DNA from: Amphibalanus amphitrite
Lineage: Eukaryota > Arthropoda > Thecostraca > Balanomorpha > Balanidae
Reading direction: 5' to 3'
NCBI RefSeq assembly: GCF_019059575.1
Contig: NW_024881705.1
Span: forward strand, 1-64,000
DNA length: 64,000 nucleotides
Shown: positions 39,101 to 48,100 of the stretch, in pieces
Layout of the letters: every line of letters begins with the position of its first letter
Position numbering within the stretch: position 1 is the first letter of the stretch
Program-made: the position numbers and the translations under genes
The notes under the pieces: generated by a model
Told to the model about the DNA's origin: nothing
The model's input: the letters and a program-made list of their open reading frames with translations, nothing else
Database searches by the model: none

Positions 39101-42100
39101 ACCCAATAAAAATTACCGCAAGTCAATCGCCCAAGCGGCTGCTGAGATATGAGCCTCTCAAAATCACTACTTTTGCAAAACAGCTTGAACACCCTTGACT
39201 TTTCACGTGGCACGTGCCACGACGGTCACTGAGATGTATCAAAAGTAGTCAATTACGGGGTAGAAGGAATGGGGCTACCCAACAAAAAAGACCGCAGGCC
39301 AATCGGTCCAGCGGTTGCTGAGATATAAGCCTCTCAAAAGCGTTACAGGCCGGGCCGGGCCGGGCCGCTCATACTGAGATTTTTCCGTTATATTGAAAAG
39401 GCTCACTTCGCTCGCTGCGCTCGCTCGCTCGTAATCAATGAAATGTACATATGCCACGGCGCATGGAACATGACATTGCATTAGACATGTATCAAACCAC
39501 TTTGTTCAAACCGCTTTGTTACGAGCGAGCGAGCGCAGCGAGCGAAGCGAGTCTTTTCAATATAACGGAAAAATCTCAGTACCAGTAAAACGCCTTTTGG
39601 GCGAAGAACGAGCGAGCGAGATAGTGAGCCCTGCACGTGCGGAAGGGCGAGAGGGTACTTCCAATGGACTTGCGCAAAGCACCGTTCTAACCGGTCGCTA
39701 GCGGTGTACCAAATTTGAACGCAATCGGCCCAGCCGTTCCTGAGATCTGGAAGCGGCATTCTGCACGTGCGCACGTGCAAACGGGGTCCAAAATGACTTT
39801 TGCACGGCACCCTACTAACCGGTCCCCAACCGTGTACCAAATTTGAGCGCAATCGGCCCAGCCGTTCTCGAGATCTGGAAACGCCCCCTGCACGTGCGCA
39901 CGTGCAGTAGCACCCTAACCGCAACACATGGGAATGCATTGCCTGGTGGGTGCCTACCTGTATGCCAAGTTTCAGCGAAATCGCCCTAGTAATTACCGAG
40001 TTACTGAAATGGGAACAAATTTGACACCTCTTATTGTTGTATTTTGCACGTGCACTGGGGGTGACCCACATGCATCGAGAGTATCCGACCTTTGGTAGAA
40101 GGGATGCTGCTACCCTACAAAAATTACCGCAAGCCAATCGCCCAAGCGGCTGCTGAGATATGAGCCTCTCAAAATCACTACTTTTGCAAAACAGCTTGAA
40201 CACCCTTGACTTTTCACGTGGCACGTGCCACGACGGTCACTGATCTGTATCAAAAGTAGTCAATTACGGGGTAGAAGGGATGGGGCTACCCAACAAAAAA
40301 GACCGCAGGCCAATCGGTCCAGCGGTTGCTGAGATATAAGCCTCTCAAAAGCGTTACAGGCCGGGCCGGGCCGGGCCGGGCCGGGCCGCTCATACTGAGA
40401 TTTTTCCGTTATTACGAGCGAGCGAGCGCAGCGAGCGAAGCGAAGTCTTTTCATATAATTAGATAAATAAAAGAAGTTGACCTTTTCCTCGACATCAAAA
40501 ATGTAAAAAGCCGAATAATATATTTTAAAAAAACGGTGAGCTTTCGGCCACTGGCCTTTATCAAACCAACGTGATAACAATGTTAAAAGACGATCCTGTG
40601 AATAATCTGGCTGCCATTTTTCAAAAACCGAAGATCGTGATATTTTAGAAAAGGCGCTACTCATAAGGGCAAACTATTTGATCGATCGATTGTCTACATA
40701 GTGTCCGATGTACGTAACATACATAATATACAATTGTACACGTAGCTGTCAAACACACATCGTATGGAAGGTATGTACACTAACGCCGATGTACATCACA
40801 CACATAACAAAATAATATACACATACACATATTAATCGATTGAGTTGAAAAGGCTACACGCTCACAAGATACACATGATACAGGCGCTTACATGATTGGC
40901 CACGACGAAAGATTTGAGTTTATGTGCGGGCGGTTTGCTTTTATAAGTAGGGATTCTGCGATTTTTCTGTCCGGGTGGTCTTTGGAGCGATAAAGGACGC
41001 GAACCTGAAGAGGAAGGGATGATTTGTTTAGCGGCGCGCCGGGGTGGTGCTCACGGAAGTGGTCTCCCATCGGGGTCCCTTCGGATGCGCTCAAGGCGTC
41101 TCGTAAATGTTCGTTAAATCTTAGTCGAACAGGTCGTTTTGTCTCGCCAATATATGTGCCGTCGTCACCCTTTCCTTCACACAACTTACAATTTAGCCTG
41201 TAGACGACGTTCTTCTGTGTACAATCACCTGAAAAATCTGATTTACACATGTTGCATCGTGGGCCTCCAGGGCAGATAGGTTTAGATAGTGATGATCTAA
41301 CCAGTTTGTTTCGTAGCTTTTGGGGGTTCCTCCATGCTATCCTGACAGCTAAGCCAGATTTCCTAACTTTACTTTGAATTTTGCATAGCAGTTCTTCATC
41401 TATGTACGGTAAACATAAGAAGCCATCTTCGCCCTTGTCTCGACTAACTTTACCCATCCTGGATCTGGACCCTTGCTGTTTGACCTCCCACAAGAGCCTT
41501 CTAAGAACTTTCTCTGGGTACCCATTTTGAACCAACAATGTCCAAATCTTGTCTATACTCGCCCTCTCTTTAGCACTGCTCGAAGAGTTCCTGATCGCTC
41601 GCCGAAACTGACTACGGACTATGTTTTGTTTAGTAGACTTCGGGTGGGCTGATTTATAGTGCAGGATGATCCCTGAGTTCGTAGGTTTTATGTAAAGTTC
41701 CGTTTCAATCTTCGTAACCTGGCCCTGGGTCACTACTGTCACTAAGGTATCTAGGAAGGCCACACCCGACTTTGTACCGGAATGCTCCATGGTAAAGCGG
41801 AGTGTCGGATGAAGCGAGTTTAAATGCGACAGAAAATCTACTAAAGCCTGCTCTCCATGGGTCCACACGCCTGCGTAATCGTCAATGTACCGAACCAAAA
41901 AGGACGGTTTCTGATCCAGGTTTTCTAACGCTTTGCGCTCAAAACGATCCAGAAAGAGAATGGCTATGGGAGGGGCACATGGATTGCCCATAGCGATCCC
42001 TAGTGTTTGTCGGTAAAATTTATCATCAAACCTAAATACGTTCTTGGTGAGACAATGCTGAAGGAGATGTTTAATATCATCCTGGGAGAGACCGAAGGTA

Positions 42101-45100: not shown

Positions 45101-48100
45101 CTATGGGCAATCCATGTGCCCCTCCCATAGCCATTCTCTTTCTGGATCGTTTTGAGCGCAAAGCGTTAGAAAACCTGGATCAGAAACCGTCCTTTTTGGT
45201 TCGGTACATTGACGATTACGCAGGCGTGTGGACCCATGGAGAGCAGGCTTTAGTAGATTTTCTGTCGCATTTAAACTCGCTTCATCCGACACTCCGCTTT
45301 ACCATGGAGCATTCCGGTACAAAGTCGGGTGTGGCCTTCCTAGATACCTTAGTGACAGTAGTGACCCAGGGCCAGGTTACGAAGATTGAAACGGAACTTT
45401 ACATAAAACCTACGAACTCAGGGATCATCCTGCACTATAAATCAGCCCACCCGAAGTCTACTAAACAAAACATAGTCCGTAGTCAGTTTCGGCGAGCGAT
45501 CAGGAACTCTTCGAGCAGTGCTAAAGAGAGGGCGAGTATAGACAAGATTTGGACATTGTTGGTTCAAAATGGGTACCCAGAGAAAGTTCTTAGAAGGCTC
45601 TTGTGGGAGGTCAAACAGCAAGGGTCCAGATCCAGGATGGGTAAAGTTAGTCGAGACAAGGGCGAAGATGGCTTCTTATGTTTACCGTACATAGATGAAG
45701 AACTGCTATGCAAAATTCAAAGTAAAGTTAGGAAATCTGGCTTAGCTGTCAGGATAGCATGGAGGAACCCCCAAAAGCTACGAAACAAACTGGTTAGATC
45801 ATCACTATCTAAACCTATCTGCCCTGGAGGCCCACGATGCAACATGTGTAAATCAGATTTTTCAGGTGATTGTACACAGAAGAACGTCGTCTACAGGCTA
45901 AATTGTAAGTTGTGTGAAGGAAAGGGTGACGACGGCACATATATTGGCGAGACAAAACGACCTGTTCGACTAAGATTTAACGAACATTTACGAGACGCCT
46001 TGAGCGCATCCGAAGGGACCCCGATGGGAGACCACTTCCGTGAGCACCACCCCGGCGCGCCGCTAAACAAATCATCCCTTCCTCTTCAGGTTCGCGTCCT
46101 TTATCGCTCCAAAGACCACCCGGACAGAAAAATCGCAGAATCCCTACTTATAAAAGCAAACCGCCCGCACATAAACTCAAATCTTTCGTCGTGGCCAATC
46201 ATGTAAGCGCCTGTATCATGTGTATCTTGTGAGCGTGTAGCCTTTTCAACTCAATCGATTAATATGTGTATGTGTATATTATTTTGTTATGTGTGTGATG
46301 TACATCGGCGTTAGTGTACATACCTTCCATACGATGTGTGTTTGACAGCTACGTGTACAATTGTATATTATGTATGTTACGTACATCGGACACTATGTAG
46401 ACAATCGATCGATCAAATAGTTTGCCCTTATGAGTAGCGCCTTTTCTAAAATATCACGATCTTCGGTTTTTGAAAAATGGCAGCCAGATTATTCACAGGA
46501 TCGTCTTTTAACATTGTTATCACGTTGGTTTGATAAAGGCCAGTGGCCGAAAGCTCACCGTTTTTTTAAAATATATTATTCGGCTTTTTACATTTTTGAT
46601 GTCGAGGAAAAGGTCAACTTCTTTTATTTATCTAATTATATTCAATATGTTCCTCGCTCGAGCACTTAGTAATATTACCGAAGTCTTTTCAATATAACGG
46701 AAAAATCTCAGTATGAGCGGCCCGGCCCGGCCCGGCCCGGCCTGTAACGCTTTTGAGAGGCTTATATCTCAGCAACCGCTGGACCGATTGGCCTGCGGTC
46801 TTTTTTGCTGGGTAGCCCCATCCCTTCTACCCCGTAATTGACTACTTGTGATACATCTCAGTGACCGCCGTGGCACGTGCCACGTGAAAAGTCAAGGGTG
46901 TTCAAGCAGTTTTGCAAAAGTAGTGATTTTGAGAGGCCCATATCTCAGTAGCGGCTTGAGCGATTGTCTTGCGGTCATTTTTATATTGTAGCTGCATCCC
47001 TTCTACCAAAGGTCGGATACTCTTCATCTATGTGAGTGACCCCCACTGCACGTGCAAAATACAACAATAAGAGGTGTCAAATTTGTTCCCATTTCAGTAA
47101 CTCGGTAATTACTGGGGCGATTTCGCTGAAACTTGGCATACAGGTAGGCACCCACCAGGCAATGCATTCCCATGTGTTGCGGTTAGGGTGCTACTGCACG
47201 TGCGCACGTGCAGGGGGCGTTTCCAGATCTCGAGAACGGCTGGGCCGATTGCGCTCAAATTTGGTACACGGTTGGGGACCGGTTAGTAGGGTGCCGTGCA
47301 AAAGTCATTTTGGACCCCGTTTGCACGTGCGCACGTGCAGAATGCCGCTTCCAGATCTCAGGAACGGCTGGGCCGATTGCGTTCAAATTTGGCACACAAC
47401 TAGCGACCGGTTAGAAGGGTGCTTTGCACAAGCCCGTTGGAAGTACCCTCTCGCCCTTCCGCACGTGCAGGGCTCACTATCTCGCTCGCTCGTTCTTCGC
47501 CCAAAAGGCGTTTTACTGGTATTGAAAAGACTCACTTCGCTCGCTGCGCTCGCTCGCTCGTAATGAGCGGCCCGGCCCGGCCCGGCCCGGCCTGTAACGC
47601 TTTTGAGAGGATTATATCTCAGCAACCGCTGGACCGATTGGCCTGCGGTCTTTTTTGCTGGGTAGCCCCATCCCTTCTACCCCGTAATTTACTACTTTTG
47701 ATACATCTCAGTGACCGCCGTGGCACGTGCCACGTGAAAAGTCAAGGGTGTTCAAGCTGTTTTGCAAAAGTAGTGATTTTGAAAGGCTCATATCTCAGCA
47801 GCCGCTTGGGCGATTGACTTGCGGTAATTTTTATAGGGTAGCAGCATCCCTTCTACCAAACATAGGATACTCTCGATGCATGTAGGTCACCCCCAGTGCG
47901 CGTGCAAAATACAACAATAAGAGGTGTCAAATTTGTTCCCATTTTATTAACTCGGTAATTACTGGGGCAATTTCGCTGAAACTTGGCATACCGATAGGCA
48001 CCCACCAGGTAATGCATTCCCATGTGTTGCGGTTAGGGTGCTACTGCACGTGCGCACGTGCAGGGGGCGCTTCCAGATCTCGAGAACGGCTGGGCCGATT

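Follow-up and report, generated by a model that had tools for sequence, protein, structure and literature searches.

Head-to-head Penelope-like elements in Amphibalanus amphitrite pair one tailed with one tail-less end, a pattern suggestive of two-ended target-primed reverse transcription

How do two nearly identical copies of a Penelope-like element come to lie head to head, each with its 3′ end facing outwards, as the arms of one large palindrome? The question is raised by a locus of Amphibalanus amphitrite (assembly GCF_019059575.1) in the window analysed here, that is, positions 1–64000 of contig NW_024881705.1, labelled C208 below. A first-pass annotation, made from the letters of the window alone, had drawn attention to the palindrome. 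We find that it is the product of a single insertion, that the head-to-head arrangement is the usual product of this family and not a local oddity, and that in every insertion resolved at both ends one outer end carries a short extension – the ‘tail’ – and the other lacks it, a regularity which the annotation had overlooked. In our judgement the window insertion very probably represents one Penelope-like event that proceeded by two-ended target-primed reverse transcription.

The palindrome itself is as real as the annotation had claimed. Its arms, both about 3 kb long, occupy positions 40454–43414 and 43680–46640 and are reverse complements of each other with one mismatch in 2961 positions (T/G at 43241); a repeat search of the window returned the inverted pair as 40453–43414 and 43680–46641, with a 265-nt spacer. 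The asymmetric centre was also described correctly: 265 bp of 5′ coding sequence (43415–43679, minus strand) belong to the left copy only. The left copy (40454–43683, minus strand) and the right copy (43680–46678, plus strand) have in common the four nucleotides GATT at 43680–43683, a microhomology at the joint of the arms. Both copies point their 3′ ends outwards, yet these ends are unlike. The left one is tail-less and stops at ...TAATTATA, its last letters being ...CTAATTATA; the right one runs 38 nt further (TTCAATATG...AATATTA), and this tail, at 46641–46678 on the plus strand, has no counterpart on the left. In the complete tandem unit on contig C96 these letters are translated as part of the beginning of the open reading frame (ORF), and the stretch would correspond to the interval between two start sites of reverse transcription.

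Immediately outside the two copies stands the same 13-mer, CGAAGTCTTTTCA, at 40441–40453 on the left and at 46679–46691 on the right. When the flanks are joined, the resulting 64 nt recur with one base missing at 39519–39581, in a neighbouring repeat unit 0.9 kb away, which provides a paralogous empty site. Because the 13-bp duplication encloses both copies and such an empty site exists, the palindrome is one insertion event. The arm difference of 1 in 2961 points to a very young insertion, as do the arms on C96, with 0 differences in 3429. Of the two origins that the annotation had offered, a very recent insertion or gene conversion, the duplication and the single arm difference bear out one recent event, and gene conversion is unneeded.

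The wider genome (807.6 Mb in 2644 contigs, to which labels such as C96 refer) contains other near-identical copies of the family, and those on C96 and C1090 retain the full reading frame. Across the window family and two others, the C972 and C843 families, 55 of 55 resolved insertions (31, 11 and 13, respectively) are bounded on both outer sides by element 3′ ends, one of them tailed and the other tail-less, and have a target stretch in common at the two flanks; the least clean is C1144, with ends at +39 and an intermediate +19. Were the two sites used independently and equally often, unlike ends would turn up at all 55 insertions with a probability of about 3e-17 (2^-55).

These figures come from several searches. 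For the window family, a tail-containing query (40 of 296 candidates scored) gave 45 matches representing 29 distinct tailed insertions, 28 of which were resolved at both ends, the remaining one being C1044. Since such a query is blind to insertions with two tail-less ends, the search was repeated with a tail-free query (40 of 256 candidates scored); its 42 matches represent 24 distinct insertions, of which 23 conform; the remaining one, C331, consists of one arm. The 31 resolved insertions comprise 24 in the main tabulation plus C1144, C677, C41, C249, C647, C1424 and C537. In the two other families (40 of 207 and 40 of 230 candidates scored), C972 itself and 10 of 11 further insertions conform, the eleventh, C36, having no duplication, and so do C843 itself and all 12 further ones. 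When the ends in these lists were clustered (48 of 49 rows, a 35-nt piece on C52 being omitted, and 42 of 42 rows), 27 of 27 multi-end clusters proved to be head-to-head and none tail-to-tail, with unlike outer ends in 26; C1133 is the lone cluster with like ends. The genome-wide copy search covered 56 of 6653 candidates.

Duplicates of one insertion were counted once throughout. The places on C642, C384 and C839, and one of the two on C2016, were taken as duplicates of C2090 on account of common flanks or spacing, the flanks having been inspected for C642 and C839; the two copies on C947, and the several pieces with identical flanks on C249, were each merged into one insertion, and C337 was merged with C518 on mirrored spacing alone. 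Six places stand outside the 55: C1133, C36, C331, C1044, C1706 and C304:687k.

The rule holds whatever the arm length, the shortest arm measuring 16 nt and the longest over 3 kb, and partner arms can differ by more than 2 kb, as on C2016 (911 versus 3141). At the short extreme, the partner arms measure 23 nt on C579, 18 nt on C1424 and 16 nt on C537, each of them beginning at the start site unused by the long arm. Since these three insertions carry such 16–23 nt partners from the other site, apparently single, 5′-truncated copies are, in some cases at least, dimers with a stub arm.

The target, too, is regular. In the window family the shared target stretch measures 12–17 nt and is exactly 13 nt in 14 of 24 cases, and in the two other families it measures 12–18 nt and is exactly 13 nt in 13 of 22; the longer stretches probably include chance matches at the edges. 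Among the 14 window-family insertions with exactly 13 nt, the target is two-fold symmetric, with A at −2 or T at +2 in 24 of 28 half-sites (p 1.4e-8, a value that applies to that position alone and is uncorrected although all positions were examined). The same preference recurs in 18 of 26 half-sites of the C972 and C843 families. A symmetric target combined with a 13-nt stagger is what would be expected of a dimeric nuclease that cuts each strand once. One host repeat (CCCACCTTCTAAAATGTTGTTAAAACCA) received two insertions, those of C96 and C677 (flanks at loci L001 and L093), which occupy different copies of it at points about 10 bp from each other.

The inner joints, where the two arms meet, are far more variable. 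They were tabulated in 30 rows that represent 27 distinct insertions (three rows for C96, two for C249). In 10 of the 27 the arms overlap by 2–10 nt – C208 itself (GATT), C249, C304, C465, C579, C280, C1550, C619, C744 and C1574 – and the shortest of these overlaps may be due to chance. The other 17 have 4–78 nt of filler, and several fillers, for example on C2578, C947, C57, C1090, C1706 and C2090, copy sequence adjacent to the joint. Taken by analogy, such joints resemble the products of end joining by polymerase theta; the comparison is with the general behaviour of that enzyme, which was not itself sought in the genome.

What reaction might leave such a structure? In target-primed reverse transcription, as known from R2 and L1, a 3′ end of the target DNA primes the cDNA, and copies are 5′-truncated; the insertions described here are similar in both respects, with the difference that both of their ends behave as primed. 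From the observed ends, duplications, joints and arm statistics we infer the following course of cutting, priming and joining. The element’s enzyme would cut both target strands with a stagger of about 13 nt, the length of the duplication, leaving 3′ overhangs. Each 3′ end would then serve as primer for a separate cDNA copied from element RNA; one of these would start at the outer (tail) site, the other at an inner site about 40 nt upstream. Each cDNA would be extended towards the 5′ end of the RNA and halt at a variable point, and the two cDNA ends would finally be joined, as the joints suggest, through microhomology or templated filler in a manner like that of polymerase theta. Priming at two ends in this way would make both outer ends element 3′ ends and would yield a head-to-head palindrome, possibly with unequal arms.

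The biochemistry of a related element lends support to this scheme. The purified protein of PAc, a Poseidon element of Anolis carolinensis, cleaves and extends both target strands in vitro, and its reverse transcription starts at two sites within 5′ ORF sequence, the interval between them being the tail (PMC11167929). Because that protein acts on both strands and starts at the two sites that bound the tail, the two-ended model gains support; the end rule is observed in our insertions, and the enzymology proposed to underlie it would agree with the Anolis work.

Several points nevertheless weigh against this interpretation. The in vitro work on Anolis saw no difference in start site between the strands, so that it does not itself establish one site per end (PMC11167929). 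At C331 one arm is flanked by a 12-nt duplication, and no partner can be demonstrated; a stub of at most 5 nt (AATCT) would be indistinguishable from element sequence there, and C331 may thus be a stub dimer. C1044, C1706 and C304:687k are not among the conforming insertions counted. C36 has a tailed and a tail-less end, yet no duplication was found. C1133 has two tail-less ends that lie 7.5 kb apart with no common duplication, and we read it as two insertions. On C1424 and C537 the shared stretches reach tail-like letters, and the actual duplications could be shorter by a few nucleotides. Ends listed without a partner in the two other families (20 and 11) stand outside the counts. Finally, all the evidence is structural and comes from one assembly.

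Of the alternatives, self-priming supposes that an antisense transcript, or the first cDNA, folds back on its own 3′ end and that the resulting head-to-head hairpin is then inserted; in the form with an antisense template it has been proposed for the elements of bdelloid rotifers (PMC3846280). This would explain the orientation and the identity of the arms. However, as the same end of the template would be copied twice, it predicts like ends, and it is disfavoured because unlike ends are observed at 55 of 55 resolved insertions; partner arms of 16–23 nt that begin at the other start site, and arms that differ in length by more than 2 kb (C2016), would be unexpected as well. We therefore consider self-priming very unlikely. 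Still less probable is an origin from separate insertions of the two copies, or from one insertion that was later duplicated in inverse orientation or altered by gene conversion. The host repeats that flank the palindrome are indeed likewise inverted and about 96% alike, but this similarity is far below that of the arms, a single 13-bp duplication surrounds both copies, the joined flanks restore the site found 0.9 kb off, and an identical arrangement occurs at the other resolved places. Twin priming as described for human L1, in which one RNA is primed both at its 3′ end and internally, likewise involves both target strands and inverted joints, but its products have an inverted 5′ part and lack a second 3′ end, whereas here both arms hold the 3′ terminus of the element and overlap by up to about 3 kb; we give it hardly any credence. 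As little credence is due to an artefact of assembly or sequencing, for, although folded reads can yield large palindromes, the tail on one side only, the one-base difference between the arms, the asymmetric centre, the target duplication and the recurrence of the arrangement on many contigs with different joints all speak against it.

If two-ended priming is accepted, a further question is whether the two arms are copied from one RNA or from two. In 24 insertions the partner arms differ at 42 of 17,065 bases (0.25%), as compared with 0.75% for arms paired at random, and none of 20,000 permutations was as low as the observed value. The 5′ end points of partner arms are correlated as well (Spearman 0.43, p 0.019), with a median difference of 260 nt versus 874 nt after permutation (p 4e-5; 30 of the 31 pairs, C41 being left out). 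These statistics fit one RNA copied twice, two RNAs from the same source or two enzymes that stop simultaneously. Other observations weigh against a strong claim for one template. If one enzyme trailed the other on a single RNA, the tail-less arm should always be the longer; it is so in 20 of 30 pairs, an indecisive outcome. Variants private to one insertion occur in both arms in 7 cases and in one arm in 38, and most of them look like later mutations, which gives one template no strong support. The arms of C1144 (1.94%) and C123 (1.90%) differ as much as unrelated arms. As a tentative idea, to which we give somewhat less than an even chance, a single asymmetric complex may be at work: a protein dimer would grip a single RNA at neighbouring sites, each subunit occupying one of the two and extending one end of the same staggered break, so that this RNA would be copied twice.

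What kind of element is this? The complete copy on C96 encodes 998 residues when read from MSRKR..., or 982 from MFLARAL.... Compared with it, the reading frame of the left copy in the window (40888–43698, minus strand, with initial codons contributed by the other arm) begins at residue 68, and that of the right copy, on the plus strand, at residue 158. The two copies, which the annotation had called intact, are hence both 5′-truncated inside the ORF, with 67 and 157 N-terminal residues missing, and the 812-residue reading owes its GTG start to a mechanical listing that took the first start codon available. One coding difference between the copies had been reported, and there is indeed a single Y/S change; it falls on residue 29 of that reading, not on residue 30. 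Motifs of a reverse transcriptase (RT; 44893–45219) and, C-terminal to them, of a GIY-YIG endonuclease (45886–45987) lie on the plus strand, each mirrored by a copy on the minus strand, so that both copies contain the two sets as the annotation had said, although both Pfam domains score under the Pfam cut-offs: RVT_1 with E 2.5e-4 and 21.2 bits (cut-off 29.6 bits), and PF01541, over residues 706–743 of 812, with E 0.006 and 17.3 bits (cut-off 22.6 bits). A sequence search of the PDB gave three matches, with telomerase RT as the sole molecule named (best E 0.009, residues 370–493). The RT motif YIDDY (480–484) and the GIY-YIG residues Y709, Y725, G727, E728, R736, E739 and H740 are invariant across five genome copies, and the key residues are retained in four other genome copies of 56–65% identity; the proteins of the C972 and C843 families are 61% and 65% identical to that of the window family.

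Taken together, these weak scores and features suggest a telomerase-related RT with a predicted GIY-YIG endonuclease C-terminal to it, which supports the annotation’s assignment of a Penelope-like element and, more precisely, a canonical endonuclease-bearing one. Other hallmarks agree with this. The tail is of the 30–40 nt kind, with matches that end at −6 to +9 or at +35 to +44, and one at +19, and a target site duplication of 13 bp in the window has counterparts in other resolved insertions. Tandem or partial-tandem units with pseudo-LTRs, absent from the window copy, are present in the family: on C96 partial units stand directly upstream of the full units (element 2584–3226 on the left and 2660–3226 on the right), and C1090 likewise has one upstream, from element 3089. 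Further Penelope copies, on C600, C777 and C714, lie head to head with a tandem array in one arm or in both, in the listed order − − + +, − + + + and − − − +. As for a hammerhead ribozyme, Rfam gave no match up to E 1 within 38000–49000 of the window and no ribozyme match in loci L002, L005, L044, L012 and L018, with the proviso, for both results, that minimal hammerheads of such elements may escape these models. The sole match listed for the loci is to a miRNA family, MIR5635 (L018:3686–3889, E 0.0024, 36.1 bits versus a gathering score of 149), in an inverted stretch near the centre of C972, and most likely reflects the palindrome itself. Among the viral contigs searched, no relatives in other hosts were found.

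It was already known that Penelope copies can lie head to head and that one of the two can bear a tail. The element studied here resembles PAc in its predicted C-terminal GIY-YIG domain, its telomerase-like RT and the two putative start sites in 5′ ORF sequence; PAc differs in that its tail is described as an optional 30–40 bp extension in a fraction of copies (PMC11167929), whereas none of the insertions resolved here is without a tailed end, and in having a hammerhead ribozyme, for which nothing reached E = 1 here. In the Penelope elements of Adineta vaga (Pen1–Pen6), head-to-head is the most frequent inverted arrangement, duplications measure 8, 9 or 10 bp, a tail is optionally present on one inverted pseudo-LTR, and palindromes are attributed to self-priming on an antisense template (PMC3846280). 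Some copies there lack a duplication (PMC3846280), in contrast to the mostly 13-bp duplications and the strict pairing of tailed with tail-less ends seen here. For Penelope of Drosophila virilis, the founding member, a partial-tandem copy was transpositionally active, and the endonuclease needs tail sequence to cleave (as cited in PMC3846280 and PMC11167929); the available portion of PMC12910113 yielded no description of its ends. The strict one-tail rule and the model of two-ended priming are not stated in the literature searched, which includes PMC11167929, PMC3846280, PMC8969392, PMC7229834 and PMC12910113 as far as their texts were accessible, most subscription papers lying outside it.

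The surroundings of the palindrome have a history of their own. On each side lie two host repeat units of about 0.85–1 kb (38458–40412 and 46694–48366), mutually inverted and about 96% alike, with CGAGCGAGCG... stretches and GGCCG runs at the unit joints. It was apparently where the members of this older inverted pair meet that the element inserted, the older inversion being outside the event. That the inverted units could be part of the element was considered and ruled out, the empty site at 39519–39581 showing that the element landed inside such a repeat. Between two repeat units, a 210-bp stretch (39372–39581) with 63-nt inverted ends (97%) resembles a small terminal-inverted-repeat element, the right arm of which contains the paralogous empty site. 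Elsewhere in the window, a simple repeat at 3242–3925 is read mechanically as a Leu-Ser repeat in a 227-residue frame, with no gene implied.

For the Penelope class, whose way of inserting itself is poorly understood, the strict end pattern suggests how this may happen. It turns odd structures into a specific, testable reaction scheme, in which the ‘optional’ tail becomes a marker of the start site used at each end, and it offers a practical way to locate complete Penelope insertions and their ends in genomes. If the asymmetric dimer complex proves true, it would explain the unlike start sites, the match between arms within an insertion and their correlated 5′ ends; head-to-head dimers would then be the regular product, and copies that look single would be dimers with a second arm of a few nucleotides.

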